Part shown: positions 12,275 through 32,451 of the stretch, in pieces
Layout: the number at the start of each line of letters is the position of its first letter
Position numbering within the stretch: the first letter of the stretch is position 1
IMG/VR virus record: IMGVR_UViG_3300028364_000094
Location: 1-32,693 of that record
Direction: 5' to 3' (one strand)
Origin: a virus
Length of the DNA: 32,693 nt
Position numbers and translations under genes: made by a program
The notes under the pieces: model-generated
The model's input: the letters and a program-made list of their open reading frames with translations, nothing else
Told to the model about the DNA's origin: nothing
The model's database searches: none

Positions 12275-12280
12275 CTTAAG

Positions 12281-12295
12281 GTAAATACTTGATAC
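12281..12295 (+). promoter_or_regulatory. Putative T4-late-like promoter
   Basis: GTAAATACTTGATAC starts just after the hairpin, with TAAATA 26 nt before the ATG at 12308. It matches the motifs at 34 and 2152. It could drive the tail genes and, because no other promoter is visible before 24931, the whole decoration island too. Confidence 0.55.
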
Positions 12296-12307: not shown

Positions 12308-12862
12308 ATGATGTCTAACTTATCAGATAGCACGAGTATATATGCCAGTGGAGTAATTCAGTTATTTGATTTTGATTCTGGTGATTTGATATTGGAAAAG
12401 AAAAATGCCATAAATTACGGAAAGTTACTTGGTATACTGACCGAAAGTCTGCTGTCAGGAAACGCACTCACTATTGACAGCGTATGCTTTGGGGACGAAG
12501 GCGTAATAGTCAATTCAATTGGCGGCATCACATACAAACCAACAAATACTCATTCTGGGACCAGCCAAGAACTACACAATGAAATACTGGTTAAGCCATT
12601 GACAGTGTCAACTGATATTGCAATAGATCATAGGATCACTCCCATCTACTCAATGACCAACGGAGCAGTACAAATTGTAGTAAATTCAATGATCGATTAC
12701 TCTGAAGAGATTTCACAATCAACTGAATATGTTATGAATGAGCTGGGGCTAAAAATGTCTGATGATACCCTACTTACTCATGTCACATTTCATCCTATTC
12801 AAAAAACAAGTGGTAGAAAAATCCAATTGATATATACAATATCACTTCAAATTGGATCATAA
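12308..12862 (+). CDS. Virion structural protein, 184 aa
   Basis: A small structural protein of a family common in T4-like marine phages. Its recognisable pattern is an N-terminal strand with F.F.SGDLILEKKNAINY, then CFGDEGVIVNSIGGITYKP, then a beta-rich C-terminal half. The members I recall sit beside fibre and baseplate genes, as here. There is no enzymatic motif, signal peptide or membrane segment. AGGA is 3 nt before the first ATG and 6 nt before a second, in-frame ATG at 12311, which is the better-spaced start. It is the first gene after the 12281 late-promoter motif and lies 11 nt before the next gene. The assignment rests on sequence pattern and context. Confidence 0.7.
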   Translation: MMSNLSDSTSIYASGVIQLFDFDSGDLILEKKNAINYGKLLGILTESLLSGNALTIDSVCFGDEGVIVNSIGGITYKPTNTHSGTSQELHNEILVKPLTVSTDIAIDHRITPIYSMTNGAVQIVVNSMIDYSEEISQSTEYVMNELGLKMSDDTLLTHVTFHPIQKTSGRKIQLIYTISLQIGS

Positions 12863-12873
12863 GGAATTAATAA

Positions 12874-13929
12874 ATGACATACAGAGTAGACTTCACTGAT
12901 CAAACCAATGATCCAATTATAATACAAGACAGCACTGTCAATACATCTACTAATCTCAAGTTAGTAGGCAGAAATGTATCTGGGTATGGAGAGTACATTG
13001 CAGAGAATTTCATACATATCTTGGAAAACTTTGCATCTGCAATCCCGCCAACCAAACCAATTGAGGGGCAAATCTGGTACAACAAGGACCAGTCTTCAGC
13101 GTTGATTTATACTTCCATTGGCATATGGAAGCCAGTGACTTCAAATACCGTGTCGACCGCATCCCCCAATGTTACTGGTAACGAAGCAGAAGGCGACTTA
13201 TGGCTTGACAGTACATCAAAAATCATATACGTTTACAATAATGGCACATGGTTGGAAATGGTATCCATTGATCCTGAATCAACTATGGTGGTAAAAACAA
13301 GACGAGATAATATTGGTGGCCTACACAAAACATTGGAATATGTAGTCAATAATCGAACTACAATGATTCTGTATAGTGGGAATATATCTTGGTCACCATT
13401 ATCAGTTGGATCCGCGGCGGAGCGTCTTGCCAATGGTACATTAATGGCAACTGAATTCCCAACGATTAGACAGGGCTCTAATTTAAACACATCAGAAGAG
13501 TTTGTATTCCACGGGACTGCTACTGCTGCTCGATATGCTGACTTAGCAGAACGATATAGATCAGATGATATATATTCTTCCGGTACATTGGTTGAACTGG
13601 GTGGTTTACATGAAATTACTGATTCCAAGATGGAATTGAGTGAAAATGTTTTTGGTGTTATCAGTACCAACCCGGCGTTTATGATGAATTCAAATGCCGG
13701 TGAGGATAATACTCATCCATATGTGGCATTGAGTGGACGAGTGCCATGCAAAACTACTGGAGTCGTCAAAAAAGGAGACAGAATGGTGTCATCCAATATA
13801 CAAGGCGTGGCCCGCGCAGCTTCAGATTCTGAATCACAGGATTATAGAAAAGTTATTGGTAGGGCCTTGGAAGGTTCCAGTAACATAAACCAAATTGAAA
13901 TAATTGAAATTGTTGTCGGAGTTAAATAA
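12874..13929 (+). CDS. Fibre-like virion protein with possible Peptidase_G2-like C-terminal domain, 351 aa
   Basis: The N-terminal part has a pattern widespread in marine T4-like virion proteins: a T.LKLVGRNVSGYGEYIAEN segment, a helix HILENFASA, then P..P.EGQIWYNKD (about residues 27-72). A second DLWLDSTSK...YNNGTW module follows near residue 110. The C-terminal ~140 residues (YADLAERYRSDDIYSSGTLV..., then VFGVISTNPAFMMN, then VALSGRVPCKTTGVVKKGD) resemble the Peptidase_G2 / intramolecular-chaperone domain of phage fibres, which in some members cleaves itself off after trimerisation. The catalytic residues of that family cannot be confirmed by eye. AAGGA lies 7 nt before the ATG. A tail-fibre or baseplate-fibre role is likely. 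Confidence 0.7.
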   Translation: MTYRVDFTDQTNDPIIIQDSTVNTSTNLKLVGRNVSGYGEYIAENFIHILENFASAIPPTKPIEGQIWYNKDQSSALIYTSIGIWKPVTSNTVSTASPNVTGNEAEGDLWLDSTSKIIYVYNNGTWLEMVSIDPESTMVVKTRRDNIGGLHKTLEYVVNNRTTMILYSGNISWSPLSVGSAAERLANGTLMATEFPTIRQGSNLNTSEEFVFHGTATAARYADLAERYRSDDIYSSGTLVELGGLHEITDSKMELSENVFGVISTNPAFMMNSNAGEDNTHPYVALSGRVPCKTTGVVKKGDRMVSSNIQGVARAASDSESQDYRKVIGRALEGSSNINQIEIIEIVVGVK

Positions 13930-13931: not shown

Positions 13932-15152
13932 GTGGCCATTGAACAAGGATCCATAATAACCGCAGAAGAATTTAATGACCTTGCTCTTGTTGTTGACCGA
14001 GTGTATAATGATATTACACCGTCTGCGGCTTTTACTGTGATCGAACAAAATTATAGACCATTGAACCCATCCCAGACCAATGTGATATTTTTCTTGAGTG
14101 GTATGGATCCTTATTATACTGATATCACGCCCGGCAAAGGTCCATTTTTGTTGTCTCCGAAACCGAACGCTGGAGACTTTTTGGTAGTACAGATTGGTAA
14201 TCAAGCAACAAAATTCGGTTACTTTATGAACATAGTAAATGGCACAATCACATTCTTGGAAGATCTTCCAGCGGGTACACAAGTAATGGTGTTTAATAGA
14301 ACAACACATATATATGGTTGGGGGAATGTGCAGACTGATAAAAAGAGCGTTACTGAACAGGTGGATTCAGATGATATTAATCAATTAATTGATAGAACAA
14401 ATATCATCCTACGTAGAACTGGATTTTCCAGCGTGTATGATAATGTCTTGCCTAGGACTGATATTCTCGCAGAATATGATCAGGAATTGCGAGACACATT
14501 GATCGGTACTATAATCAACGGTGATAAGACATATATCAATGCTGTCGCCGAATTAACAACCGGGCCAATGTTGAATCGAGTGGGGGCATGGAGTGATTCA
14601 CTTGCAGGGGCAATTGAATTTGAATTCACAAACTACCAACGGGCAAGATACTTCTTTAATGCAGGAGGAGAGATTAGATTTGATGTTGACATAAGCGGAA
14701 ACGTTAATCTTGAGGGAATTCAAGAATGGGTGGATATTGCCACTGCATTGGGAACTGTGAAAATTAACTGGGATCGTGCAACACAGACTGGTTCTGCAGG
14801 GGTGTCAAACCTTGAAGGATTTTTCCACTTGACCCCGGAATATCAAGTGCTATTTTTAAGTGACGCAGTAGAAAGCCCATATTCCAGTGGCGACCCGGGT
14901 GATTTTTACGGTGGGTATGTGAGTACCAGTCGCCGTATTGAGATATCAGCAAAATTACAAGAAACAAATTCATCTTTTAAAGTAGTGGTACAATGCAAAT
15001 TTTACGAACCCAACGCCACATTGTCACTCCCAATGGACGTCTCGGTTAATTCGTTTGTATTTCAGCCGTCTGATGTCGACCTTGGTGGCAGCACGGCCTT
15101 CACAATGAATGCCCCAACTGTTAATATTCTTCAACAATTAACACCACAATAA
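13932..15152 (+). CDS. Virion structural protein, 406 aa (GTG start)
   Basis: It begins at GTG 13932, two bases after the previous stop; no ATG is available near the conserved-looking N-terminus (MAIEQGSIITAEEFNDLA). The sequence is beta-rich with a central segment of the type FTNYQRARYFFNAGGEIRFDV, a pattern I associate with T4-like tail/fibre-associated structural proteins, and a C-terminal strand-rich domain. No enzymatic motif, membrane segment or signal peptide is visible. It is probably co-translated with the fibre-like gene upstream. The exact virion role is unknown. Confidence 0.65.
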   Translation: MAIEQGSIITAEEFNDLALVVDRVYNDITPSAAFTVIEQNYRPLNPSQTNVIFFLSGMDPYYTDITPGKGPFLLSPKPNAGDFLVVQIGNQATKFGYFMNIVNGTITFLEDLPAGTQVMVFNRTTHIYGWGNVQTDKKSVTEQVDSDDINQLIDRTNIILRRTGFSSVYDNVLPRTDILAEYDQELRDTLIGTIINGDKTYINAVAELTTGPMLNRVGAWSDSLAGAIEFEFTNYQRARYFFNAGGEIRFDVDISGNVNLEGIQEWVDIATALGTVKINWDRATQTGSAGVSNLEGFFHLTPEYQVLFLSDAVESPYSSGDPGDFYGGYVSTSRRIEISAKLQETNSSFKVVVQCKFYEPNATLSLPMDVSVNSFVFQPSDVDLGGSTAFTMNAPTVNILQQLTPQ

Positions 15153-15174: not shown

Positions 15175-15525
15175 ATGGACAAGAGACTGCAAGACGCAAT
15201 GTCATTTGCCAATCATCACGCCACCCTAAACGCACATCAAAAAATATTACAGGCTAGAGCAGATCGCTTGAAAATTGTCTATTATGGCCGAGGCAAGTTT
15301 TTGGCCAACCTTACTACAATGCAAAATATCATGACCTATATGGAATTATTCAAATCAAACTCTGGCGTGATCGAAGATTCAAATAATAACCCCATTATGG
15401 TAGACTCATTTGACAATCTGTTGGATGAACTCAAAGGGGCATATCATGAGTCCATTAATGAATACTTCAATGGACTCCATGCCCTTTCAGAGCTCAGAGA
15501 CCTAAAAAAACTAATAGAGGAATGA
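15175..15525 (+). CDS. Small helical hypothetical protein, 116 aa
   Basis: It starts at ATG 15175, with AAGGAA about 11 nt upstream. The protein is charged and predicted by eye to be almost entirely alpha-helical (repeated Leu/Ala heptad-like spacing at residues 5-60 and 80-115), with a loop rich in Asn/Asp at about 62-72. It has no Cys motif and no leader-core layout. It lies between the last structural gene and the first glycosyltransferase, so it may be a structural accessory, a chaperone or a partner of the decoration enzymes. Function unknown. Confidence 0.55.
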   Translation: MDKRLQDAMSFANHHATLNAHQKILQARADRLKIVYYGRGKFLANLTTMQNIMTYMELFKSNSGVIEDSNNNPIMVDSFDNLLDELKGAYHESINEYFNGLHALSELRDLKKLIEE

Positions 15526-15531: not shown

Positions 15532-16425
15532 ATGATTGATTCGGGTGTATGCTTATTTGCATACAGTAATCAACAATTGGATTACATCAAGCTGGCAGTG
15601 TTGTCGGCTATGAGTGCCAAGAAACAATTGAATAATATCCCAGTGTGTTTAATAACAGATACAGCAGGTGAAAAATACATGTTGAAAAATATTCCAAAAC
15701 ATGTATCATGTGTATTTGACCATGTGATAATTGCACCTGCCGCTGAATCACAAAATATTAGACTGCATTTTGACTCACCGTGGCAAAAGTTTTACGCAGA
15801 CTTCAAGAATAGAAACAAGCATCTAGTCTACGAACTAACACCATTCAACAAGACATTACTAATGGACTGTGATTTCTTGCTATACAACAATCAATATTTG
15901 AATCTATTCAAAAGCAACACCAAGTTGTCCATGTATAAGTCAGCAGTGGACTTGGTTATGTCACCACCAGCCGCAGCTGAACAACGCTTGAATCCCAAGG
16001 GAATAGACATGTTTTGGAGTACGGTTGTATATTTTGAAAAATCAAAATTGAGTGAAATCTTTTTTAATTTGTGGGCTCATATCTCAGAGAACTATGAATT
16101 CTATACTACTAGATATCAATTTCCAGATGGCCTATTTAGAACTGATTTTTGTGTGAGCATTGCCAGCCATATTATGGCAGATTTTTCCAATAATACATTT
16201 ATTCAAGATATGCCAGATTCACCGATGACCTTCATGTCACAGCGAGATGAAATTGTGAATGTATCCACTGATCATTCGGGTCTTGTGTTATTATCCAACA
16301 ACAGAAAAGAACAATGGCGTGACATTGCGGTTAAGCATGTAAATACCAATCTACATTTAATGAATAAGAAATCAATGCTCAGACACTACGACGCCTTATT
16401 AGTGAGTTTTCAAAATGAACCATGA
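15532..16425 (+). CDS. GT-A-fold glycosyltransferase-like protein, 297 aa
   Basis: It looks like a nucleotide-sugar glycosyltransferase. The N-terminus (VCLFAYSNQQLDYIKLAVLSA) has the first strand-helix of a GT-A fold, then NIPVCLITD, and a DxD motif sits in TLLMDCDFLLYNN (D112, D114), the metal/nucleotide-sugar site. A later segment (PDGLFRTDFCVSIASHIM, about residues 200-217) fits the acceptor side. There is no membrane segment, so it should act in the cytoplasm. It overlaps the next gene by 11 nt. The donor and acceptor cannot be read from the sequence; the context suggests decoration of a virion or surface polymer. Confidence 0.65.
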   Translation: MIDSGVCLFAYSNQQLDYIKLAVLSAMSAKKQLNNIPVCLITDTAGEKYMLKNIPKHVSCVFDHVIIAPAAESQNIRLHFDSPWQKFYADFKNRNKHLVYELTPFNKTLLMDCDFLLYNNQYLNLFKSNTKLSMYKSAVDLVMSPPAAAEQRLNPKGIDMFWSTVVYFEKSKLSEIFFNLWAHISENYEFYTTRYQFPDGLFRTDFCVSIASHIMADFSNNTFIQDMPDSPMTFMSQRDEIVNVSTDHSGLVLLSNNRKEQWRDIAVKHVNTNLHLMNKKSMLRHYDALLVSFQNEP

Positions 16426-17107
16426 AGGGTACATAATCCCCTCGCAATTGAAAAATATTCACTTGGCAGAAACATTAATGAAAACTATCATGCATGTTGA
16501 TCCAACGCGAGAAGTAATAATTCTAATAGACCAAGATACTCCCACTGACAACACGATGATGTCATATCCATTTAATTGTGGAGAGGTCAAAGATACGACA
16601 ACCATGCTGCATCAAACATATCATGCCTCTCCATTTGACAGAACTTGGGTACTGGATCAGAGATCTATTGCAGTTGGGTCACTGGATCACATATGGGAGC
16701 AATTCAACATGGACTTTAAAATAGGATTTGATACTGTTGACCATAAGAAAATCCCCACAAAAAATACATCATCTTCCATGTTCTTTACTAAGTCTAAAAA
16801 TGCAAGTGACTATTTTAAAGTGTTGGGCGAATACACAAACAGTCGAAATACTGACGGTGATTTTGATGTCAGCGCATTGATTAAAAATGTCAACGAAATA
16901 TTTGAATATATAGTCGTACAGCCTGTGATATCCCTTGTTCAATTGACTGACACTAAATTGGATTATTGGATATATCCAGATCATAATGGGCATATGGCAA
17001 TGAAGGCCGGAAATTATAAACAGTTCGGAATAGTGGAATATTCACAATCTCTTTCGGAACATAACCAAAAGGCAATTCATGACATTATTGACAACTCGAT
17101 CCACTGA
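16415..17107 (+). CDS. Degenerate GT-A-like paralogue of the upstream glycosyltransferase, 230 aa
   Basis: It appears to be a diverged relative of the 297-aa protein before it. The segment SPFDRTWVLDQRSIAVGSLDHIW aligns with TPFNKTLLMDCDFLLYNNQYLNLF, but the DCD motif is DQR here (D81-R83), losing the second Asp. It is also shorter. It may be an inactive partner, or a transferase with an altered metal site. Its start overlaps the previous gene by 11 nt and its end overlaps the next by 29 nt, which implies tight co-expression. The assignment rests on this local match only. Confidence 0.5.
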   Translation: MNHEGYIIPSQLKNIHLAETLMKTIMHVDPTREVIILIDQDTPTDNTMMSYPFNCGEVKDTTTMLHQTYHASPFDRTWVLDQRSIAVGSLDHIWEQFNMDFKIGFDTVDHKKIPTKNTSSSMFFTKSKNASDYFKVLGEYTNSRNTDGDFDVSALIKNVNEIFEYIVVQPVISLVQLTDTKLDYWIYPDHNGHMAMKAGNYKQFGIVEYSQSLSEHNQKAIHDIIDNSIH

Positions 17108-17996
17108 ATCAGATGAGTTATTTTTTGTCTATTATAATATCGATAATGGTAAGATTAGTCAAATTCTCAGGAAGAAAGATCCCAGCTCAACTGATGAATT
17201 GTTGGAATCCACTTCCACTAGCGCAGTTAAAGAACTCATGGCCGGTAATAGAATCTCATCTTATCGAGTTACCGCATCAAGCCATGGCATGGAAATTCTA
17301 CACCTACATGATTCAATAGAATCAATTAATAATTCGTCTGATTTTTCGCAGTTGTCATTGGATGCAGTATCCCCCAATGTCACCGTGGATATATCAATTC
17401 ATACCAGAGTGATTAAAATTAAGTTTGCTAAATCCATCGTATCATTATACAATACGATGTTCTCTGCTGGGGCCTCACTGAAAGAATCATTTAAGTTTGT
17501 AATGACAAATGATTCAGGCCCAAGTACTCATCAATTTGAAGTTGCATTTACTTTATCGGACATTATATCAAATGATCCAATAATTCATGAGATTGGCGAT
17601 GCCGAATTTCCCACTGATGATGTGACAAGTATCAAAGTATATGGACAAACGACCTTTAGTGGTATATTGATTAGGGGGATGGAACATGATGTTGCAATGC
17701 GAGATCCTTCTAGACAATCAAATTTAATTCCAATATTCTCTGATTTTTCCATGGACTGTCATTATTCCATACAATCAACTCCCAAAGGTCTCATTATGAT
17801 TAGAAACACACGATGTACTAATTTAATTAAATTTTCAATAAAGTCAATGGATTTTGTATATTCAGGAGTGGACCCTGACGCGTTTCATTCAATATATACT
17901 GCTGATCTAACTAGGGATATTTTACTTCCCTTGCCCAATGCTGGTGAACAAGTTTATCATTCACAGAATGGCATGATGATTGGAGAGATAATATAA
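17079..17996 (+). CDS. Hypothetical protein, 305 aa, beta-rich
   Basis: Not recognised. The N-terminus (ELFFVYYNIDNGKISQI) is a strand-turn-strand, followed by a short helical stretch and then a long beta-rich region without Cys clusters or catalytic signatures. The amino-acid style (Ser, Thr, Asp and Ile rich, alternating hydrophobic) fits a structural or sugar-binding protein better than an enzyme. The chosen ATG at 17079 has AAGG about 8 nt upstream and overlaps the previous gene by 29 nt. The stop shares one base with the next ATG (TAATG). It could be the acceptor or a binding subunit for its glycosyltransferase neighbours, which is inference from position only. Confidence 0.5.
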   Translation: MTLLTTRSTESDELFFVYYNIDNGKISQILRKKDPSSTDELLESTSTSAVKELMAGNRISSYRVTASSHGMEILHLHDSIESINNSSDFSQLSLDAVSPNVTVDISIHTRVIKIKFAKSIVSLYNTMFSAGASLKESFKFVMTNDSGPSTHQFEVAFTLSDIISNDPIIHEIGDAEFPTDDVTSIKVYGQTTFSGILIRGMEHDVAMRDPSRQSNLIPIFSDFSMDCHYSIQSTPKGLIMIRNTRCTNLIKFSIKSMDFVYSGVDPDAFHSIYTADLTRDILLPLPNAGEQVYHSQNGMMIGEII

Positions 17997-18943
17997 TGAA
18001 AACTCCCATAACTCAATTGGACACTATATTTTTAAGCTATGATGAACCCAATGCAGATGAGAATTGGTTGGATCTCATTGGCAAATGTCCATGGGCCAAG
18101 AGAAGTCACGGCGTCTATGGTAGTGATAATGCACATAAAGCCGCGGCGGCAATGTCAGATACCGAGCGTTTTGTGATTGTGGATGCTGATAATATTGTGT
18201 CTCCTGAATTTTTCAATCAGGAAATAGATTTAACTGTATTGACTGACAAGGACTTGATATCATGGCCTGCCAAGAATACAATTAATGGGTTGGTATATGG
18301 TAATGGTGGCATAAAATCATGGAGCCGTAAACAGATTTCGGACATGCGATCACATGAAAATGCACATCGAGAGCATAAATCAGCGCAGGTTGACTTTTGC
18401 TGGGATATGAATTACCTGGAAATGAAAGAGTGTCATTCACAAATTCATAACAATGCCACTCCCTATCAGGCTTTTCGGGCAGGGTTCAGGGAAGGATGTA
18501 AAATGGGACTTGTAAATGGCACAGTGATGTCTGAATTCAATAAAGCAAGAATTCCAGAAGGCAATATGAAAAAACTATTAACATGGATGTCAATTGGATC
18601 AGATGTTGACAATGGTATTTGGGCAGTATATGGGGCCAGATTGGGATTTTGGAAAACCAATTATCAACGTGACACATGGAATTGGATATCAGTAAGAGAC
18701 TTTGCTTGGCATGATGATTTCTGGGTAAACACAGTATCTCCTGAGTTTTCTGATAACAGAGGAAAACTCTGCTTGAATTCAGGATACACATGGGATCAAA
18801 TACGATTATGGGATGCAATTGATGCACTGGGCGACAAAATAAAACTTGAAACCAGTATGGAAATAATACAGGCGGATACAGCAACCAGCTCATTCTTTAA
18901 AAGAATACAAGATTCAAATTTCAGACACAATAGGCAGACATAA
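17996..18943 (+). CDS. GT-A-like glycosyltransferase, 315 aa (tandem pair, copy 1)
   Basis: A glycosyltransferase-like protein with DxD in FVIVDADNIVSPEF (D63, D65), preceded by TIFLSYDEPNADENW and KRSHGVYG, and followed by NGLVYGNGGIKSW and a FRAGFREG..M acceptor-side helix. The gene at 18946 shares all of these in the same order, so the two are paralogues. Copy 1 has about 80 extra residues at its C-terminus (from WNWISVRDFAWHDDFW onward). It is soluble, with no signal peptide. GGAGAG precedes the ATG. It probably transfers sugar to a phage or host glycan; the donor is unknown. Confidence 0.65.
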   Translation: MKTPITQLDTIFLSYDEPNADENWLDLIGKCPWAKRSHGVYGSDNAHKAAAAMSDTERFVIVDADNIVSPEFFNQEIDLTVLTDKDLISWPAKNTINGLVYGNGGIKSWSRKQISDMRSHENAHREHKSAQVDFCWDMNYLEMKECHSQIHNNATPYQAFRAGFREGCKMGLVNGTVMSEFNKARIPEGNMKKLLTWMSIGSDVDNGIWAVYGARLGFWKTNYQRDTWNWISVRDFAWHDDFWVNTVSPEFSDNRGKLCLNSGYTWDQIRLWDAIDALGDKIKLETSMEIIQADTATSSFFKRIQDSNFRHNRQT

Positions 18944-18945
18944 CC

Positions 18946-19647
18946 ATGTATGATATCGCGTTTATAAGTTACAATGAATCAAACGCAGATGACAACTATC
19001 GTATACTGTCAGAACGGTTTCCGCTTGCCAAAAGAATACACGGCATACACGGCATACATCAGGCTCATATTTTTGCAGCACACTCATGCCATACGAAAAT
19101 GTTTTGGGTGGTGGATGCTGACATAGTAGTATCAGAGAGCTTCAAATTCAACCATACAGTGTCCGAGTGGGAATCGCGATGTGTGCATATATATCGTAGT
19201 CTCAATCCAGTTAACGGGTTGATATATGGCAATGGTGGCGTTAAATTATTACCAAGACTGCCGACAATAAATATGGATGTCGTGGGAACTGATATGACCA
19301 CTAATATATCACCTGACATCATAGTCATGGACGAGACGGCTGGTACTACTGCGTTTAATGTGTCTGCGTTTTCAGCTTGGCGCAGTGGATTTAGAGAATG
19401 CGCCAAGCTTTCATCCAAAGTAATATACAATCAAGTCAATGATGAAACTGATCATAGATTGGCAATATGGCAGACCGTTGGCAGTGACGAACTGAATGGT
19501 GAACATGTTATCGCGGGCGCCAAATTAGGACGTGCATTCGGTGAAAAACACTCAAAGTCAATCAGTCATTTGAATTTGATTAATGATTTTGCTTGGCTTC
19601 GTGAACAATTTAATATCTATATCAACAGAAAGACAGACATTCAATGA
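18946..19647 (+). CDS. GT-A-like glycosyltransferase, 233 aa (tandem pair, copy 2)
   Basis: Paralogue of the preceding gene. The shared order is IAFISYNESNADDNY, KRIHGIHG, FWVVDADIVVSESF with the DxD (D57, D59), NGLIYGNGGVKLLPR and WRSGFRECAKLSSKV. It keeps the DVDNG-equivalent region (SDELNGEHVIAGAKLG) and the LNLINDFAWLREQF segment but then stops, so it lacks the C-terminal extension of copy 1. The stop overlaps the next ATG (ATGA). Both copies keep the metal-binding Asp pair, so both may be active, perhaps on successive sugars. Confidence 0.65.
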   Translation: MYDIAFISYNESNADDNYRILSERFPLAKRIHGIHGIHQAHIFAAHSCHTKMFWVVDADIVVSESFKFNHTVSEWESRCVHIYRSLNPVNGLIYGNGGVKLLPRLPTINMDVVGTDMTTNISPDIIVMDETAGTTAFNVSAFSAWRSGFRECAKLSSKVIYNQVNDETDHRLAIWQTVGSDELNGEHVIAGAKLGRAFGEKHSKSISHLNLINDFAWLREQFNIYINRKTDIQ

Positions 19648-20555
19648 AATTTTTAGTATATTTTGGTAACGAACAGACTGATAATGAATATACATTGACA
19701 TTTGAGACTGGGCACAGCGCAATCGCAGAAAAATGGGGAAATACGTTGGAATCCCAGATCCGAGTGTCAAATACCATATGTGAACCCGATAGGATGTATA
19801 ATTTCCCAGACAATGAATGGGACGATGCCAAGATGGTGTCAGAATTAAACGTCTGCATTGACATCATTAATACTGACCAACAGATGATAGAACAACGAGC
19901 ATGGGACAACATGGGACAGCATGGACTCAATATATTGCATCACTATTTTGAGAATCTCCGAGGAGGAGTTGCTACACCTTCTGACTTTTGGGTAAAATCT
20001 GACACAAAAGTAAAGTCAGCCTTGGAAAGATTCAATATCATTATACATAGATATGAAGGGTTCATATCCAGCCAAAATACTGGTAAGCCGCCGATGCCAA
20101 GGATTGTATGTCGGTTCCATGGAGGAGTCAGAATTCCATTGGAAGATGAAGATTATGATCATTTCACAATGACTAAAACCTTTGGTGAAGTGCAAATAAA
20201 TTATTGTGAAGTTGGGAAACCACTATATGATGTATACAAGGACCAAGATGATATCATAGGCGAGGACAATATCAGACCATTGCGATTTTATTCATGTGAC
20301 TTCACAGTGGCATTCCATGAACATACACAAGTCACCGCTGACAAATTCCTTAAAGGAATGAAAACATGGTGGGATCAAAACGCTTCGCATCTATCTGCTT
20401 TGGGATTTCAACACAATGACAAGAAGAATGCAATTGGATTAATTCCAGTGGCCAATATGGTGACGCCACATGACACAGAGCATCTGAAATCAGATATCAT
20501 AAATAATCTAAGTATATACAATCAAATGAAAAGAGTTGAAATCTTAGATGAATAA
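19644..20555 (+). CDS. Hypothetical protein of the decoration island, 303 aa
   Basis: Not recognised. The N-terminus (MKFLVYFGNEQTDNEYTLTFE) is a strand pair, followed by a helical middle (about 60-140) and a mixed C-terminal half with RIVCRFHGGVRIPLEDEDYDHF (about 152-173) and many acidic and aromatic residues. No DxD, P-loop or Cys cluster is present. It starts within the stop of the tandem glycosyltransferase and its end overlaps the FkbM gene by 8 nt, so it belongs to the same operon. It could be a polymer-binding or acceptor-recognition subunit, but nothing in the sequence proves this. Confidence 0.5.
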   Translation: MKFLVYFGNEQTDNEYTLTFETGHSAIAEKWGNTLESQIRVSNTICEPDRMYNFPDNEWDDAKMVSELNVCIDIINTDQQMIEQRAWDNMGQHGLNILHHYFENLRGGVATPSDFWVKSDTKVKSALERFNIIIHRYEGFISSQNTGKPPMPRIVCRFHGGVRIPLEDEDYDHFTMTKTFGEVQINYCEVGKPLYDVYKDQDDIIGEDNIRPLRFYSCDFTVAFHEHTQVTADKFLKGMKTWWDQNASHLSALGFQHNDKKNAIGLIPVANMVTPHDTEHLKSDIINNLSIYNQMKRVEILDE

Positions 20556-21249
20556 TATAGTATGGAATAGTGAAGAAGGAAATGATCGATGGGTAGCTGA
20601 AGTATTTAAGTACAAGCATGGCGGTTTCTTTGTGGATGCAGGAGCGACTGGTGGGAGAAACAATAGTGCGCTGACGCTGGAGAAACAACTCGGTTGGCAT
20701 GGTATATCAGTGAATGCAAACTCAGAACATGCTGCTCGGTCAATTGATAAGCACCAGCGTATGAATATGGAAAATTCAGCATTATGGAGTCATAATCGGG
20801 GGATTGAGTTCTATTGGAATGCAATTGGTGATGTTCTTGAATCCGAAACTGCATTTAATGGTAACAAACAAGACCTGTCGTATATGTCCGCCGCCAAAGA
20901 CGCAGATATACTTCCCAGATTTAGGACCATACTCGAAGAAAAGGCTCAATTAATTTCAGTACCGTCTATCACACTTGAGCGATTATTGGAGAAATACCAT
21001 GCACCAAGTACAATCGAATATATTGGGATGGACATTGAAGGATCAGAATATGAGGTACTGTCTGTTTTCCCCTTTGACAAATATAAAATTCTAACCATGA
21101 GTATCGAATTTAGTGACGGATTTCAACCATTTCTTGAAGGGAACGGATTCACTAGGGTTGTCAATCCCTTTTGTCCCAAATCACACGAACATCACTATGT
21201 GAATAACTGTATAATTGGAGAGTATAAATTTGGCATATACACGCACTGA
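20548..21249 (+). CDS. FkbM-family SAM-dependent methyltransferase, 233 aa
   Basis: An FkbM-type methyltransferase. The SAM-binding start GGFFVDAGATGGRNNS (G25-S40) has the family's G.FVD.GA..G..S layout, followed by LEKQLGWHGISVNANSE, where FkbM proteins have W.GI.+EPN. The later ITLERLLEKY and IEYIGMDIEGSEYEVL (M161, D162, E164, S166) match the family's conserved LD.EGSE.EVL. Known members O-methylate sugars and glycans or polyketides. Here the neighbours point to capping or decorating a sugar. It is soluble, overlaps the upstream gene by 8 nt, and the following sulfotransferase begins inside its last codons. Confidence 0.82.
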   Translation: MNNIVWNSEEGNDRWVAEVFKYKHGGFFVDAGATGGRNNSALTLEKQLGWHGISVNANSEHAARSIDKHQRMNMENSALWSHNRGIEFYWNAIGDVLESETAFNGNKQDLSYMSAAKDADILPRFRTILEEKAQLISVPSITLERLLEKYHAPSTIEYIGMDIEGSEYEVLSVFPFDKYKILTMSIEFSDGFQPFLEGNGFTRVVNPFCPKSHEHHYVNNCIIGEYKFGIYTH

Positions 21250-21964
21250 TGGACATTTACATTTCATATCAGTGCCCAGAAGCGGTGTCACTGTATTAAC
21301 TGAACTCATGGGAATACTGCGAACAAGTTCCAAGAGAACCATGTATAGCCCATTTCATACAATTCCTATTCGAGAATCTTTTATTCAGGAATTACAACAT
21401 GGTCATGACTATGTTATAAAGTCACATGCTGTCGATCAATGTAATTTCGCCAGTATCGACTATGGAATATATCATAACATACGGTTGCTGAGAAGAAATT
21501 TAGTGGAATCTTGTTTGAGTTTGGCATTGGCCAGAACCACAGGACAATGGGGGTGGAATGATTATTCCACCCAGTGTTCTCCAATTGTTCTGGCCGATGC
21601 GGTCATTGAAAATGCAGTTGTGTCACAAATACAATCAGTAAATTCCATGATGGAAAATACATATAACATAGAGTATGCCAATACTTTATTTTATGAAGAT
21701 ATCCCATGGCACGCCACAGTAAAAGAAATTATTGCGTCGGTTTCATTCGATAAGTGGCATCTACCATTTCTGACAGACGACATTAATGGATCAACTATTC
21801 AAGAACTGGGTATGAATACGCAACGAGCACATGCAAAGTTCATTCAAATCAGCAACGAACAACAAGCACATGAATTATGTTTGAAATTTCTAAATGAATC
21901 CCAAACAAGTGAATTATACCAGTTGAATCAATCAGGAGTAATTGTAGCATGGCATGGTGCATAG
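21230..21964 (+). CDS. Sulfotransferase-like protein, 244 aa (copy 1, TTG start)
   Basis: A PAPS-dependent sulfotransferase-like protein. FISVPRSGVTVL near the N-terminus is the 5'-phosphosulfate-binding loop (PRSG.T.L), and RLLRRNLVESCLSLAL about 75 residues later fits the 3'-phosphate-binding segment. A KSH motif lies between them. The region has no ATG. TTG 21230 is preferred because GGAG (21217-21220) is 9 nt upstream; an earlier in-frame TTG at 21215 has no comparable site. It shares its layout with the gene at 24203, including LVE..LSLA....GQW, so the two are paralogues. The host must supply PAPS. The acceptor is probably a sugar hydroxyl, by inference from neighbouring genes. Confidence 0.65.
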   Translation: MAYTRTDGHLHFISVPRSGVTVLTELMGILRTSSKRTMYSPFHTIPIRESFIQELQHGHDYVIKSHAVDQCNFASIDYGIYHNIRLLRRNLVESCLSLALARTTGQWGWNDYSTQCSPIVLADAVIENAVVSQIQSVNSMMENTYNIEYANTLFYEDIPWHATVKEIIASVSFDKWHLPFLTDDINGSTIQELGMNTQRAHAKFIQISNEQQAHELCLKFLNESQTSELYQLNQSGVIVAWHGA

Positions 21965-23160
21965 AACCTTTTATTAATGCGTCACATACTACAGATGGAC
22001 ATTATCAACCATGTTGTATTGCACAAGTTGATAAAACGGCCGGGAGAACCACTGAGAACCTCACCCCAATCGAAGCCATGAATACTCAATATATGCAAGA
22101 CTTGCGGGCAGAGATGAACGCTGGTACTCCCGGTAAGTTGGTAAACCACGCCTGCTCAAACTGTATATTCAATGAGTCACATGGGGTAAAGTCAAGAAGA
22201 CAAAAACAAAACAACAAATACCAAAATGAAAAGACAATGGCCACTGTCAATCGAACAACATCGGATCCCAGTTCTGCGATTGTCAAGCAAGACCTTGAGT
22301 ATGTCAATCTAAAAATGCTGGGGAATATATGCAACCTTAAATGTGTAATGTGCAATCCTGCATCTTCTTCAAAAATTGCTGCAGAATACAAAAAACATGG
22401 TATGTTGGCTGCAACCCAGCCAATGATTGCCAATCCAATGGCCACTGACAACCGAGTTAATTATTTGAATAATATACTTGAAATATTAGAAACTGTTAAT
22501 AGATTCAGCCTAATAGGAGGAGAAGCATTTGTCCACCCTGACTTTGAATATATATTTGAAAAAATACTCACAGTGAAGAACATTCACAAGCTGGAATTGT
22601 TTATTATTACAAATGGCACGGTTATCCCAGATTATGTACTGAAGTCAGCTGATAGGTTTAAAAACCTATTGATAAGCTTTAGTGTGGACGGTATTGGAAA
22701 GAAAGCAGAATATATTAGAACAGGCACTGAATGGGAAGTAGTGGATGAAAATATTAAACTGACTCTACAATCCAATGCGTCTATTGGGTTCAATGTAACA
22801 GGACAAGTATTAAATGCCGGATACTTACATGAAGTATACGATTATATTGTGAATTCATTGGGTCTTCCGGCCGAAACAGCCAGCTGGGACAATATAGTTA
22901 CCAACCCACAGATGCATAACATGATAAATTTACCAGACAAACTCAAGGAACAATATCTTTCGGCATATAATGACAGTGGTATGCTCGCCATTCCAGGCCT
23001 CAAGACACAAATCAACACATTAAAGCTACCACAACAATCCAGCCTTGAGTTCACCCGATTTATAAAGAATAGGCATCAATTTGACAAGATCAGGAATACT
23101 GACTTATTGGAATGCTATCCTGAATTTATCGATTATCAATACTTATTGGAAAATAAATGA
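21949..23160 (+). CDS. Radical SAM protein with N-terminal twitch/SPASM-like domain, 403 aa
   Basis: A radical SAM enzyme. CNLKCVMC (C128, C132, C135) is the CxxxCxxC motif that binds the catalytic 4Fe-4S cluster, and IGGEAFVHPDF (G190, G191, E192) is the SAM-binding GGE motif. The N-terminal 75 residues hold C4, C22, C23, C69 and C72 in the pattern WC..P...............PCC...C..C, which is the layout of twitch-domain radical SAM proteins whose auxiliary cluster domain precedes the barrel. AGGAG 10 nt before the ATG and a 16-nt overlap with the sulfotransferase indicate coupled expression. The substrate is unknown. Such proteins modify peptides or sugars (epimerisation, crosslinking, dehydrogenation). 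Confidence 0.82.
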   Translation: MAWCIEPFINASHTTDGHYQPCCIAQVDKTAGRTTENLTPIEAMNTQYMQDLRAEMNAGTPGKLVNHACSNCIFNESHGVKSRRQKQNNKYQNEKTMATVNRTTSDPSSAIVKQDLEYVNLKMLGNICNLKCVMCNPASSSKIAAEYKKHGMLAATQPMIANPMATDNRVNYLNNILEILETVNRFSLIGGEAFVHPDFEYIFEKILTVKNIHKLELFIITNGTVIPDYVLKSADRFKNLLISFSVDGIGKKAEYIRTGTEWEVVDENIKLTLQSNASIGFNVTGQVLNAGYLHEVYDYIVNSLGLPAETASWDNIVTNPQMHNMINLPDKLKEQYLSAYNDSGMLAIPGLKTQINTLKLPQQSSLEFTRFIKNRHQFDKIRNTDLLECYPEFIDYQYLLENK

Positions 23161-24206
23161 AAAGTAACATTGGAATATACAACAAGAAAATTAGGCACAT
23201 TCATTTAGAGCCCACAACTGACTGCAATGCCAGATGCCCACAGTGTCCAAGAACATGGAAGGCTGGTCTACAAACTCATCCCAGCCTTCCAATTGATGAA
23301 TGGACCGCAGAAGAACTGCGTGAAGTATTATCGCATGATTTCTTTTCGGGCGTTGAGCGAGTATTAGTAAATGGTAACTTTGGTGATATTGTCAAGCATT
23401 CAAATCCAAGACAACTTATACAAGTATTGATTGATAAAGATCTCGATACTATTGAATTACGCACCAACGGGGGAGCACAGTCCATTGATTTTTGGAAATG
23501 GTTGGGGACAATTGACAACTTGACAGTGGAGTTTGGAATTGACGGATTAGCAGACACCCATCACTTATATCGGCGAAATACTAGATTTGACGTAGTGATC
23601 AAAAACGCCCGAGCATTTATTGAATCAGGTGGCAACGCATCATGGGCCATGACTGTGTTTAAACATAATCAACACCAAGTCGATGAATGTAGAGAACTAT
23701 CTAAGGAAATGGGGTTTACTAATTTCAAAATGAGACCCAGTACTCGATGGCATAAACACCAACCCTTGTCAATACTAGATAAGAATCAAGTGGAATCATA
23801 TAAGCTGGAACCTGCTGACTCAGTTAAACCAGACAATTTACCCAAACAGCCAGCTCAATTGACTGATATTGACTGTGTTGTAACATATGGCAGTGTATAC
23901 CTGTCTGGTACCAAAAGATTATGGCCATGTTGTTGGACCGAACAGCGATATATGGACTCATTGATGAACGACAGTCTTGACACAGACGATTTTATTATGG
24001 AGTTTGTGAAAAAGATGGGGCTTCCTGAAGACTTCAATCAAATTACGAAATATTCCATTGATCATGTTATTAACAGTGGTCTATTCAGAACAGTGGAACA
24101 GTCATGGTCCACTACTCCATTCAAAGCATGTTCTTCCATGTGTGGTAAATCGTCCTTATTTAAATTGCAACAGTCACTCACTGAAAACACGGAAACAAAT
24201 AAATGA
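23157..24206 (+). CDS. Radical SAM protein with SPASM-like C-terminus, 349 aa
   Basis: A second radical SAM enzyme, different in build from the one before it. CNARCPQC (C23, C27, C30) starts right after a short leader strand (IRHIHLEPTTD), as in SPASM-type proteins. The barrel continues with LRTNGG (about 103-108) and FGIDGLADTHHLYR (about 126-139). The C-terminal third carries DIDC, LWPCCW and ACSSMCG, enough Cys for one or two auxiliary Fe-S clusters. It is joined to both neighbours by ATGA overlaps in the same AAATAAATGAAAA context. Two distinct radical SAM enzymes side by side suggest consecutive steps on one substrate; the substrate is unknown. Confidence 0.82.
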   Translation: MKSNIGIYNKKIRHIHLEPTTDCNARCPQCPRTWKAGLQTHPSLPIDEWTAEELREVLSHDFFSGVERVLVNGNFGDIVKHSNPRQLIQVLIDKDLDTIELRTNGGAQSIDFWKWLGTIDNLTVEFGIDGLADTHHLYRRNTRFDVVIKNARAFIESGGNASWAMTVFKHNQHQVDECRELSKEMGFTNFKMRPSTRWHKHQPLSILDKNQVESYKLEPADSVKPDNLPKQPAQLTDIDCVVTYGSVYLSGTKRLWPCCWTEQRYMDSLMNDSLDTDDFIMEFVKKMGLPEDFNQITKYSIDHVINSGLFRTVEQSWSTTPFKACSSMCGKSSLFKLQQSLTENTETNK

Positions 24207-24925
24207 AAAATATACATGTCGTTGGGATTCCCAGATCCGGGTCCACTCATATGTCCAATGCCATATCCAATCATGCTCAAGGATATTCTTCTTTCTTTGA
24301 GCCGTTCAATCCGGGAGACACAGGGTCCATTGAAACCATTCAAGACAACATCCTGACTTCCAATAATTCAAACAATCTAGTAATCAAGTCGCATGAGACA
24401 CATTTAAGGCACTTGGCCACATGTGATTTGCTCAGTCAGTTGAATTATAATGAATGGTATAATATTTTACTGATCCGAACCAATTTAGTGGAAACCATGC
24501 TGAGTTTGGCAGTATCTGATGCCACTGGACAATGGGACACATATTATTCACATGATCCCATTACCATTACCTATAGGAAATTGTTCATGTATGCCAGCAG
24601 CATTGTGGCACAATTGGATAGCTTGTTTGAAAACCAATATCATATTAGGTACGATGCAGTACATATGTATGAGACATTACCCAAAGACACTTGGGGACTA
24701 TTTCAAAAAATTAATATTCCAGACGTTACTGTCAATCAAATTGGACAAGGTACGCCTCCGGTCCAATTTGCCAATGCCAAGTCTCAAACTATTGCCAATT
24801 TTGAACAAGCGGTCACAATGTCGAATAATATTTTGGCTGCTCAGTCTCCCAAACATATGACAATCAAAAATGGTATCATCACTGCATTCAGCCTGGCCAC
24901 ACATACTTGTCCTATACTGTCATGA
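24203..24925 (+). CDS. Sulfotransferase-like protein, 240 aa (copy 2)
   Basis: Paralogue of the gene at 21230. The 5'-phosphosulfate-binding loop is VGIPRSGSTHMSNAI (P10 to T15), closer to the classic PRSGST form than in copy 1. KSHE follows near residue 61, then ILLIRTNLVETMLSLAV for the 3'-phosphate. The LVE..LSLA....GQW stretch is shared with copy 1. It overlaps the radical SAM gene upstream by ATGA and ends six bases before the early promoter at 24931, so it closes the decoration operon. Soluble. The reaction is predicted to be sulfate transfer from PAPS. The acceptor is unknown. Confidence 0.68.
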   Translation: MKNIHVVGIPRSGSTHMSNAISNHAQGYSSFFEPFNPGDTGSIETIQDNILTSNNSNNLVIKSHETHLRHLATCDLLSQLNYNEWYNILLIRTNLVETMLSLAVSDATGQWDTYYSHDPITITYRKLFMYASSIVAQLDSLFENQYHIRYDAVHMYETLPKDTWGLFQKINIPDVTVNQIGQGTPPVQFANAKSQTIANFEQAVTMSNNILAAQSPKHMTIKNGIITAFSLATHTCPILS

Positions 24926-25292: not shown

Positions 25293-26903
25293 ATGTACGT
25301 TGATGCATTACTAGATCGAAAAAAAGACATCATTCACGTGGTTGAGCGATTGAATGGTAAACGTAAATATGTTCAATATCCGGCTCAATATGTCTTTTAT
25401 TATCCCAGTCAGAATGGCAAGCATACAAGCATTCACGGAGACAAGCTTGCCCGCGTGGTAAGTAATACATCCAAGAAGTTCAATATCGAGAAGAAGATTC
25501 ACGCCGATAAATGGCTACATGAAAGTGACACAAATGTCCTGTTTCGATGTCTAAGTGATCACTATGCTGGCAAAGATGCACCCAAACTGAATATTGGGTT
25601 CTTTGATATTGAGACCGCGTTCTGTAAGAAACGTGGGTTTGCCCCACCTGACGACCCATTTAATTCCATAACGGCAATTGCGGTCCACTTGAATTGGTTG
25701 GGGAAAACAGTATGCTTGACTATCAAGCCTCCCAGTATGAGTGAAATTGAAGCACAAGGAATTGTTGCTAAATTTCCCGACAATGTCATGTTGTTTGCCA
25801 CTGAAGAACTCATGTTACTGGCATTTCTTGAACTAATTGCCGACGTTGATGTGCTATCTGGGTGGAACTCTTCTGCCTTTGATATTCCATACTCAGTGAA
25901 TAGGGTAATCAGAATATTGAGCAACGAGCATGCCAAGAAATTCTGCCTATGGGGTGAATCTCCCAATCGTAGACAATTTGAACGTTATGGAAAACTTCAA
26001 GAAACATACGACCTAGTTGGGATTCAACATCTTGACTACTTTGACCTATACCGAAAGTATACCTATCAAGAGATGCACAGTTATAGTCTTGATGCCATTT
26101 CAGAACATGAACTGGACGAGCGCAAGGTTGAATATGACGGTACGTTGGATCAACTGTACAACAATGACTATGAGAAGTTTATTCGATACAGTTTACAGGA
26201 CGTTGATCTGATCGTGAGGTTGGATAAGAAACTGCAATTTATTGATCTGGCAAATGTAATCGCACATGACAACCTTGTGCTATTGCCAACTACCATGGGA
26301 TCAGTTGCGCAGATTGATCAGGCTATTTTGAATGAAGCACATCGCAAGGGACAAGTAGTTCCTGACCGAGAACGATCATTCAAAGACTCATCAGTGGCCG
26401 GTGCATACGTTGCATATCCCAAGAAAGGACTGCATGACTGGGTTGGTAGCATGGACTTGAACTCACTTTATCCCAGTATTATTCGAGCATTGAACATGAG
26501 TCCCGAATCACTCGTGGGACAAATCAGACCAACATACACTCATGAATATATTCAACATAAGATTGAACATGAGAAGAAGGGGTTGGCCGAAGCATGGGAA
26601 GGCAAGTTTGCCAGTCTGGAATATGACCTTGTAATGGCACGAGACAAGGTCAAAATCATGCACATTGACTTTTCTGATGAATCTGTAATTGAAGGCACTG
26701 GTGCCGAAATTTACCGATTGATATTTGAAGAACGTATGCCATGGGTGCTTTCATCCAATGGTACGATATTCAACAGTGATCATGCAGGATTGATTCCTGG
26801 TCTGCTGGACAGATGGTACAGTGAACGCAAGGATTTGCAGAAGAAAGCCAAGGCGTACAAAACGCTGTCAAGTGGTATGGAAATACCACTAAGACTACAA
26901 TAA
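25293..26903 (+). CDS. 43A: T4-type DNA polymerase, N-terminal half (gp43A): exonuclease and palm motif A, 536 aa
   Basis: Family B DNA polymerase of the T4 gp43 type, first half. Exo I is FFDIETA (D105, E107), Exo II lies in LSGWNSSAFDIPY, and Exo III in YSLQDVDLI. Motif A, SMDLNSLYPSII, has the catalytic D388. A fingers-side helix (DRWYSERKDLQKKAKAY) follows, after which the frame ends at TAA 26901. Motifs B and C are in the next gene, in the same frame, after a second stop (TGA). T4 gp43 is about 900 aa; the two parts here sum to 944. AAGGA lies 7 nt before the ATG. The two chains would have to associate to give an active polymerase. Split gp43 is known in some T4-like phages. Confidence 0.9.
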   Translation: MYVDALLDRKKDIIHVVERLNGKRKYVQYPAQYVFYYPSQNGKHTSIHGDKLARVVSNTSKKFNIEKKIHADKWLHESDTNVLFRCLSDHYAGKDAPKLNIGFFDIETAFCKKRGFAPPDDPFNSITAIAVHLNWLGKTVCLTIKPPSMSEIEAQGIVAKFPDNVMLFATEELMLLAFLELIADVDVLSGWNSSAFDIPYSVNRVIRILSNEHAKKFCLWGESPNRRQFERYGKLQETYDLVGIQHLDYFDLYRKYTYQEMHSYSLDAISEHELDERKVEYDGTLDQLYNNDYEKFIRYSLQDVDLIVRLDKKLQFIDLANVIAHDNLVLLPTTMGSVAQIDQAILNEAHRKGQVVPDRERSFKDSSVAGAYVAYPKKGLHDWVGSMDLNSLYPSIIRALNMSPESLVGQIRPTYTHEYIQHKIEHEKKGLAEAWEGKFASLEYDLVMARDKVKIMHIDFSDESVIEGTGAEIYRLIFEERMPWVLSSNGTIFNSDHAGLIPGLLDRWYSERKDLQKKAKAYKTLSSGMEIPLRLQ

Positions 26904-26915
26904 TGAAAGAGAAAT

Positions 26916-28142
26916 ATGGATATTAACTGGAAACAGCTCAATCAGATATTTGAAACAGGGACCAGGGCTGAACTTGAGACATTTTGTTCAGATAATCAAT
27001 TGGAAATCCGCGATGGTAAAATATATGCTAAATTCGACGTTGACGAAGAATATGCATTCTGGGATAAGCGTCAACTAGTACGGAAAATTCTACTAAATTC
27101 ACTTTATGGTGCACTCTTAAATGTTGGCAGCAGATTCTTCGATGCAAGACTGGGACAGAGTGTGACACTGACTGGACGAAGCATTGTGAAACATATGTCA
27201 GCACAGGTAAATGAAACCATTGCTGGTGAGTATGATCATGTCGGAGAGTCAGTAGTTTATGGGGATACCGATTCCGTCTACTTCAGCGCATATCCCATCT
27301 TGAAACCACAAATTGATGCGGGCGAAGTCACGTGGAACAAGGACACAGCCGCTGAATTCTATGATGCAGTGTCAGATGAAGTCGATAAAACTTTTGTGAA
27401 TTATATGGCAGACTCACATAACTGTCCCAGTCGATTGGGTGGGATTATCAAAGCAGGTAGAGAAATTGTGGGAAGCCGTGCCCTGTTCATTACCAAGAAG
27501 CGGTATGCAATTCTGGTATATGACAATGAGGGTTTTCGAGAAGATCACAGTGGTAAACCAGGGTATCTAAAAGCCATGGGTTTGGATCTCAAGCGCAGTG
27601 ACACTCCTTCTTATATGCAAGAATTTCTTAAAGTGATCTTGATGGATGCCTTGACTGGCGTTCCAGAAGAAGAAATTATTAGAAAGGTCAAAGATTACAG
27701 AGAAGAATTCAAGAAGATGCCGCCATGGGAAATGGGAACTCCAAAACGTGTGAATAAATTGACCATATACAAGTCCATGGAATATGACAGCAGTGATGGC
27801 ATTGAAAGATTTACAGGCAAGGCCACTATGCCGGGGCATGTCAGGGCCGCGATCAACTATAACCGTCTTCGTAAAGTGATGAATGACAACCATAGTATGG
27901 AAATATCAGATGGTATGAAAACCATCGTGTGTAAACTCAAAGACAATCCCATGGGCATCACCAGTATTGGTATTCCCACTGACGAGAATAGAATACCAGA
28001 ATGGTATAAAGAACTGCCGTTTGATCTTGATGCCATGGAACATGCCATTGTCACTAAGAAAGTGAAAAATTTACTGGGTGTGTTGAAATGGGATCTTTCT
28101 TATTCCAAAGTAAATGCAACATTCAACAGTCTTTTTGATTGA
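26916..28142 (+). CDS. 43B: T4-type DNA polymerase, C-terminal half (gp43B): motifs B and C, thumb, clamp-binding tail, 408 aa
   Basis: Second half of the split polymerase. After about 45 residues with no clear counterpart in the intact family (rich in Glu/Asp), the frame enters DKRQLVRKILLNSLYGALL (motif B, K57). VYGDTDSVY follows with the catalytic pair D117/D119 (motif C), then ITKKRYAIL. The thumb follows, and the protein ends in TFNSLFD, matching the clamp-binding end of T4 gp43 (SLFDMFDF). The ATG is 12 nt past the stop of the first half, in the same frame, with only a weak AAAGAG Shine-Dalgarno. The N-terminal ~45 residues may be residue of an insertion or a newly evolved interface. 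Confidence 0.9.
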   Translation: MDINWKQLNQIFETGTRAELETFCSDNQLEIRDGKIYAKFDVDEEYAFWDKRQLVRKILLNSLYGALLNVGSRFFDARLGQSVTLTGRSIVKHMSAQVNETIAGEYDHVGESVVYGDTDSVYFSAYPILKPQIDAGEVTWNKDTAAEFYDAVSDEVDKTFVNYMADSHNCPSRLGGIIKAGREIVGSRALFITKKRYAILVYDNEGFREDHSGKPGYLKAMGLDLKRSDTPSYMQEFLKVILMDALTGVPEEEIIRKVKDYREEFKKMPPWEMGTPKRVNKLTIYKSMEYDSSDGIERFTGKATMPGHVRAAINYNRLRKVMNDNHSMEISDGMKTIVCKLKDNPMGITSIGIPTDENRIPEWYKELPFDLDAMEHAIVTKKVKNLLGVLKWDLSYSKVNATFNSLFD

Positions 28143-31246: not shown

Positions 31247-32347
31247 ATGACAATTTATATTATTGATTTGGAGTCAATTGAGAGTAGATATACTTCTCAA
31301 TGGAAAGCATATCTACCCGCCCAAATAAAAAAATACACAGGGGAGAAAGTTGTTGAAATCTCAGGTGGAACTGATATTCCTGCCACAACTTCTCCGGGTG
31401 CATTTTTAAACTTTGGCGGTACCAGTATCTACAAAGCCAGACAACTCGAAACAATCAGTAACATGATTGTTTCGGGTACAGTCAAAGATGGTGACTATTT
31501 TCTATACACTGATGCATGGAACCCAACTGTTATTCAACTGAAATATCAACTGGAGTTATTGGGCATTAATGCCAAAATCGGCGGCATGTGGCACGCAGGT
31601 TCATATGATCCAAATGACTTCTTGGGAAGGATAATTGGGGACAAGCCTTGGGTGCGATCAGCTGAGCACAGTATGTTCTCTTGTTATGACCATAATTTCT
31701 TTGCAACACATTATCATGTGGAACTATTCGCCAATGGTGTTTTATCTTGGCAAGATGGCGAAGGATGGTATGAGACTCGACCCGAAGCAATCAATAGCAC
31801 CATTAGGCAAGTGGGCTGGCCCATGGAATACCTAAGTAAGGAGTTGAAGTCTTTTGGAAAATCCAAGAAGCGAGACTTAATACTATTCCCACATCGGATT
31901 GCCCCAGAAAAACAAGTGGAAATTTTTAAGGACTTGAAATCTTGGCTACCTAATTATGAGTTTGTAGTATGCCAAGATGAAAATCTAACCAAAGAACAAT
32001 ACCATTCCCTACTGGCATCTGCAAAGATGGTGTTTAGTGCAAACTTACAAGAAACATTGGGAATATCATGGTATGAAGGTGCATTACTTGATGTACTACC
32101 ATTAGTACCAGACCGCCTGAGTTATAGTGAAATGAATTTAAATGACTCATTCACTTACCCAAGTGAATGGACTGAATGTTCAAGGGCATATGACCAGAAT
32201 AGAAGTAAATTGATGGCTCGGATCACTTATATGATGACCAATTATGAAACATTGGTCAGTGATTTAAAACCACAAACAGAATTCATGACCGAACGATTCT
32301 TCCATGGTGATGAATTATACCGAACTGTGAGTAATCGCAGTAAATAA
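31247..32347 (+). CDS. GT-B-fold glycosyltransferase-like protein, 366 aa
   Basis: Resembles group-1/GT4-type glycosyltransferases. The N-terminal domain has WNPTVIQLKYQLELLGI and KIGGMWHAGSYDP. The C-terminal Rossmann half has RDLILFPHRIAPEKQVEIFKDL (about 205-226), the Y..LLASAKMVFSANLQETLGISWYEGALLDVLPLVPD run (about 252-287), which is the donor-binding region with the EXXXXXXXXE-type Glu pair (E268 and E276), and a helical end. No membrane segment. Sitting between dpdA and folE behind an early promoter, it may act on modified DNA as T4 alpha/beta-GT do, but a role in host-surface or virion glycosylation is equally possible. AAGGA precedes the ATG. Confidence 0.65.
   Translation: MTIYIIDLESIESRYTSQWKAYLPAQIKKYTGEKVVEISGGTDIPATTSPGAFLNFGGTSIYKARQLETISNMIVSGTVKDGDYFLYTDAWNPTVIQLKYQLELLGINAKIGGMWHAGSYDPNDFLGRIIGDKPWVRSAEHSMFSCYDHNFFATHYHVELFANGVLSWQDGEGWYETRPEAINSTIRQVGWPMEYLSKELKSFGKSKKRDLILFPHRIAPEKQVEIFKDLKSWLPNYEFVVCQDENLTKEQYHSLLASAKMVFSANLQETLGISWYEGALLDVLPLVPDRLSYSEMNLNDSFTYPSEWTECSRAYDQNRSKLMARITYMMTNYETLVSDLKPQTEFMTERFFHGDELYRTVSNRSK
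32340..32347 (+). promoter_or_regulatory. Possible late-type TAAATA motif before folE
   Basis: GTAAATAA includes the stop of the glycosyltransferase (TAA 32345-32347) and lies 30 nt before the small ORF at 32371, a spacing like that of the three late motifs. It is short and overlaps a stop codon, so chance is a serious alternative. Confidence 0.2.
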
Positions 32348-32370: not shown

Positions 32371-32451
32371 ATGGATCGAAAGATTCCGTTGGGCGTTAAC
32401 GATAGACGCTTTCAGAAGCAAAAGGAAAACAAATGGCTTTTAATAAAGTAA
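32371..32451 (+). CDS. Possible 26-aa leader peptide overlapping folE
   Basis: ATG 32371 with AAGG 7 nt upstream opens a 26-codon frame (MDRKIPLGVNDRRFQKQKEN and six more residues) that ends at TAA 32449-32451, overlapping the start of folE by 19 nt in another frame. It is strongly basic. It could be a translated leader coupling the glycosyltransferase to folE, or noise. No homologue is recognised. Confidence 0.3.
   Translation: MDRKIPLGVNDRRFQKQKENKWLLIK

Follow-up and report, generated by a model that had tools for sequence, protein, structure and literature searches.

The window that we analysed, a whole linear IMG/VR contig of 32,693 bases from an uncultured large T4-type phage, carries at 15532–24925 an island that is a real, conserved, late and tail-linked glycan-modification block. 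Its 11 genes lie on one strand behind T4-type tail genes and overlap or abut with tiny gaps, as the first-pass annotation had described in reporting ten or more overlapping genes behind the tail proteins. We postulate, with a probability of about one half, that a glycosyltransferase (GT) core in the block glycosylates a tail or fibre protein late and in the cytosol, with methylation, sulfation and radical chemistry as optional tailoring steps. The most likely target is a virion protein; the substrate, step order, chemistry and benefit are given below as we infer them. The features of the region are as follows.

61–2126: tandem pair of paralogous proteins (344 aa each) with repeated HRLDGPA motifs, in PHROG families of unknown function
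2150–2163, + strand: AGGTAAATAGTTGA, a putative late promoter box 22 b upstream of the giant protein gene
2186–12262, + strand: giant 3358-aa virion/baseplate protein (phrog_10938)
12279–12292, + strand: AGGTAAATACTTGA, a putative late promoter box 15 b upstream of B184
12308–12862, + strand: B184, conserved tail/fibre-region protein
12874–13929, + strand: FIB351, fibre-like, with a weak Peptidase_G2-like C-terminal region
13932–15152, + strand: T406, conserved tail-region protein
15175–15525, + strand: T116, final tail-region gene ahead of the cassette
15532–16425, + strand: GT1, GT8 (glycogenin)-like glycosyltransferase, DxD intact (DCD)
16415–17107, + strand: GT2, degenerate GT8 and paralogue of GT1, with DQR instead of DxD
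17079–17996, + strand: X, all-beta and Ig/Fn3-like, conserved between GT2 and GT3
17996–18943, + strand: GT3, GT-A transferase of the tail-linked clade
18946–19647, + strand: GT4, GT-A transferase of the radical-SAM-linked clade
19644–20555, + strand: U303, protein of unknown function, companion of radical SAM genes
20548–21249, + strand: FkbM-type methyltransferase (Pfam PF05050)
21215–21964, + strand: ST1, sulfotransferase-like by motif evidence only, TTG start
21949–23160, + strand: rS1, radical SAM with N-terminal twitch domain (NF033640)
23157–24206, + strand: rS2, radical SAM (PF04055) with SPASM-like C-terminal cysteines
24203–24925, + strand: ST2, sulfotransferase-like, paralogue of ST1

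The first-pass annotation had placed the genes that it listed correctly, and had left out X and U303. Among the 11 island genes, Pfam, PHROGs and NCBIfam together gave firm identifications for FkbM, rS1 and rS2 only. GT1 combines homology to GT8 enzymes with the DxD motif, and the GT1/GT2 family profile (45 rows) matched glycogenin at 1.6e-6. GT3 and GT4 are homologous, with an invariant DxD (D63, D65) and a GT-A fold; the AF2 model of GT3 is GT-A-like (pLDDT 92.9), and Foldseek returned GT-A transferases for it with E values down to 1.8e-4 and best probabilities of 1.00, at TM scores of only 0.25 to 0.37. The earlier count of four GT-A-like genes stands for GT3 and GT4, and for GT1 as a GT8-like enzyme. 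GT2 lacks the motif, as do the GT2 counterparts of two near relatives, L002 and L031, while counterparts elsewhere keep it; GT2 is therefore probably not a catalytic GT and may be a noncatalytic partner protein. X belongs to a single divergent family (64 loci) placed inside the GT block. Its low-confidence model (pLDDT 72, pTM 0.42) resembles Ig/Fn3 chains without a significant match, and we read it as a possible Ig/Fn3-like nonenzyme.

In the rear module, the single FkbM methyltransferase and the two radical SAM genes that had been proposed were recovered by profile. FkbM matched PF05050 at 5.8e-13 (49.8 bits against a gathering score of 22.7), and rS1 matched NCBIfam NF033640 (N_Twi_rSAM) at 270 bits against a cut-off of 170, with CxxxCxxC and the N-terminal twitch cysteines conserved. 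The paralogues ST1 and ST2 (32% identity), the two genes named sulfotransferase-like earlier, each carry both PAPS-loop motifs, PRSG(S/V)T and R-N-V-S; their profile scores do not reach the Pfam cut-off (ST2, E 0.0021; ST1, no Pfam match), and neither has a PDB match. A relative in L185 weakly matches two sulfotransferase families. We call both genes sulfotransferase-like, and sulfation is probable.

The arrangement is not private to this contig. A scan of viral contigs with GT3 collected 80 viral loci, which have in common the order giant-B184-FIB351(n)-T406-T116-GT1-GT2-X-GT3, with variable cargo after it. The T116-GT1-GT2-X-GT3 cassette is fixed in more than 50 uncultured viral contigs, and GT1 comes immediately after T116 in 58 cases, counted without deduplication, with a median overlap of 4 b. 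Because this order recurs in dozens of contigs, it is not due to chance. GT1 and GT3 had no matches in 50,697 phage records, and megablast of the whole block against phages returned none. Virion proteins of jumbo phages, PA5oct, CBB and Atu_ph07 among them, share ~24% identity with the giant protein.

The cargo includes GT4, the methyltransferase-like c5, arrays of N-twitch radical SAM genes, c9 radical SAM, UDP-glucose-dehydrogenase-like, carbamoyltransferase and amidinotransferase-like genes, and others, c5 and the amidinotransferase being named by sequence inspection only. Two contigs, of 328 and 518 kb, each carry 21 matches to NF033640, with sub-cut-off matches counted. Within this cargo a second module of GT4, methyltransferase, radical SAMs, U303 and, rarely, sulfotransferase can be recognized, which also occurs in chromosomes of predatory bacteria. 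Relatives of rS2 (50 to 51% identity) lie in the orders GT4-FkbM-c5-rS1-U303-rS2 (L083) and GT4-c5-rS2-U303-rS1 (L084), and U303 has a radical SAM neighbor in 44 of 64 viral loci. A conserved neighborhood, as anticipated by the first-pass annotation, exists as the front cassette and the rear module, both of which recur in relatives; the specific rSAM-rSAM-sulfotransferase grouping recurs in one other contig only, L185, where a sulfotransferase-like gene follows rS1. Scans of viral contigs with single rS1, FkbM or ST sequences or a two-row ST alignment gave no matches, and a three-row ST alignment found L185's own contig only. In two other loci, radical SAM genes of the rS1 and c9 types are fused into a 735-aa protein (L101:7038-9245 and L103:6906-9113).

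Two GT-radical SAM fusions of opposite order, GT4-rS1 in a phage (L042) and rS2-GT in an Oligoflexia MAG (L134), tie the GT family to radical SAM enzymes. In the GT tree, one phage group gathers the tail-linked GT3 sequences (SH-aLRT 89) and another most of the radical-SAM-linked GT4 sequences (89); the window's GT3 falls in the tail-linked group and its GT4 in the cargo group. Several rows labelled “bact” in this tree are phage contigs in MAGs, as shown by their T116 and GT1 genes. We rejected these as host evidence, as they are probably mis-binned. Recent acquisition of the island as foreign DNA was rejected, its GC content of 36 to 41% matching that of the rest of the contig.

Late co-expression of the island with the tail genes, which had been proposed earlier, is supported by promoter placement and by overlaps of 4 to 8 bases in relatives. 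There, the T4-type late-promoter box NATAAATA lies upstream of 39 of 134 tail genes versus 2 of 341 island genes (Fisher p = 2e-21, a value that is too small since the deduplicated rows are still related); this contrast partly follows from island genes lacking intergenic space. The exact box TATAAATA occurs 28 to 36 b before T116 at four distinct loci of relatives. Neither exact nor one-mismatch copies of TATAAATA are enriched in the window, which led us to the variant AGGTAAATA; AGGTAAATA[GC]TTGA occurs twice in the window, before the giant gene and B184 only, the motif having been derived from these same two boxes. GGTAAATA alone is no commoner than chance. The assertion that there is no promoter until 24931 is not borne out for sigma-70-like matches, which number 75 versus 54 expected by shuffling, a modest excess, with some inside the island.

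No island protein has a predicted transmembrane segment or signal. Across phage islands, 4 of 704 genes encode at least three transmembrane segments versus 15 of 146 in bacterial neighborhoods, and no flippase, polymerase or membrane-bound GT was seen in the phage islands. The near absence of polytopic membrane proteins favors a cytosolic acceptor, although host exporters could still be used. GT3 relatives were found in Bdellovibrionota, Rhodobacterales, Photorhabdus and actinobacteria. The Bdellovibrionota clusters also contain c5, rS1, rS2, c9 and U303 with envelope-glycan-like neighbors (named from sequence inspection), and the bacterial homologues adjoin other glycosyltransferase-like genes and polytopic membrane proteins.

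We propose that GT1, its degenerate partner GT2, and GT3 would be made late, alongside the tail proteins, and would glycosylate a tail or fibre protein in the host cytosol, with X, FIB351 and T406 as candidates. GT4, FkbM, ST1/ST2, rS1, rS2 and U303 would then tailor the sugar, extending it, O-methylating it, probably sulfating it and altering it by radical chemistry, and the decorated tail may alter adsorption or shield the particle. The fixed order, promoter placement, GT3/GT4 clades, position of X inside the GT block, scarcity of transmembrane segments and the fusions all led us to this reading. Counted against it are cargo clusters far from tail genes (in G001, GT4 lies 107 kb from GT3) and the HTVC008M cargo, which occurs without the GT1/X/GT3 cassette. 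The main alternative, which we consider possible but somewhat unlikely, is that during infection the island changes the LPS or capsule of the host and blocks superinfection or phage re-adsorption. Such a role was proposed by the pelagimyophage authors for tail-adjacent GT8 genes (PMC7029224). Since the same GT family, c5, radical SAM and U303 genes occur in envelope-glycan-like bacterial clusters, lipid-linked glycans exported by the host may be the substrate of these enzymes; the late-promoter-linked position behind tail genes and the lack of a flippase, polymerase or membrane-bound GT argue the other way. The bacterial glycan-type clusters keep this explanation alive, and they also argue for glycan chemistry over glycosylation of phage DNA bases. 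We regard the latter as very improbable: a TGT/DpdA-like gene and the start of folE lie 4.4 and 7.5 kb downstream of the island, but both are in the replication region, while the GT core tracks the tail genes.

It is also conceivable, but rather improbable, that the island joins two unrelated functions, with the GT core decorating the virion and the radical SAM module making a peptide, cofactor or small molecule. GT4/radical SAM clusters away from tail genes, the separate GT3 and GT4 clades, and the presence of the GT core without an N-twitch radical SAM match in G007, G009 and G012 would fit such a split. So would the best solved-structure match of rS1 (core only), 8vpo, which is among the RiPP-recognition-element reference structures in PMC12710340. 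The two fusions of opposite order speak against it, as does the nearest solved structure to rS2, cytosylglucuronate decarboxylase (1.3e-4, core only), whose substrate is a sugar acid. For a large radical SAM family with, to our knowledge, no assigned substrate, the fusions suggest glycan chemistry. We speculate, as a tentative and doubtful idea, that twitch-type radical SAM enzymes act on glycans or glycopeptides made by their partner GTs and that the large phage arrays (21 matches per contig in two contigs) diversify the chemistry of the virion surface sugar.

Virus-encoded decoration has precedents. Chloroviruses use their own glycosyl- and methyltransferases to decorate a virion protein, bypassing the host secretory route; the likeness, compared by description only, lies in these enzymes, and the difference is that chloroviruses infect eukaryotic algae. 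Mycobacteriophages, unrelated tailed phages, resemble the island in using phage-encoded GTs, and we know of no radical SAM or sulfotransferase in their virion glycosylation. Their virion proteins are modified by these GTs (Freeman 2023, as described in PMC12619734). Moraphages have four core GT groups of unsettled role (PMC12619734). A T4-like marine virus with a 183-kb genome has 12 radical SAM genes, which were read as Fe-S metabolism (Nishimura 2017, PMC5332604), with no glycosyltransferase or tail link drawn for them in the passage that reports them. Another close comparison is the pelagimyophage “host recognition cluster” of tail-adjacent glycosyltransferases (GT8) and radical SAM cassettes, for which host-surface alteration was proposed (PMC7029224, Zaragoza-Solas 2020). 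Both occur in T4-like marine phages, downstream of a large baseplate protein, and both contain GT8, radical SAM and tail fibre genes. However, the pelagimyophage cluster is variable, whereas the front cassette here is fixed, and the former lies between VrlC and gp14, whereas the island is followed by a phrog_639-type regulator and then DNA polymerase. The earlier statement that no described phage system has this content was too strong, as PMC7029224, PMC5332604 and PMC12619734 report related content. Our literature search found no paper joining radical SAM, jumbo phage and glycosyltransferase, and no description of the exact T116-GT1-GT2-X-GT3 cassette or the GT-radical SAM fusions. Marine-phage radical SAM and glycosyltransferase genes, scattered and “auxiliary” until now, can be viewed as an ordered late system that is linked to the tail and whose substrate can be tested.

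The cultured Pelagibacter phage HTVC008M (L096:24379-33406) carries GT, methyltransferase, carbamoyltransferase and UDP-glucose dehydrogenase genes, and its cluster includes an unannotated radical SAM gene (record 126811–128181). It has no detectable homologue of GT1, X, GT3, T116 or the giant protein, and its VrlC has no detectable relationship to the latter; common ancestry of the two clusters was not detected.

Downstream of the island, the family-B DNA polymerase is split into two genes 12 b apart (25293–28142), matching PHROG split-half families. The TGT/DpdA-like protein (29370–30878) is named from its GDSGGFQ motif alone, with no match in PDB, Pfam or PHROG; together with the start of GTP cyclohydrolase I (folE; 32433–32693) at the contig end, it suggests 7-deazaguanine DNA modification. 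A 366-aa protein at 31247–32347 reads like a glycosyltransferase, its PDB search being without a match. Vibrio phage K566 (L001, record 161548–168284) carries four twitch-type radical SAM genes in an array and might serve as a laboratory model.
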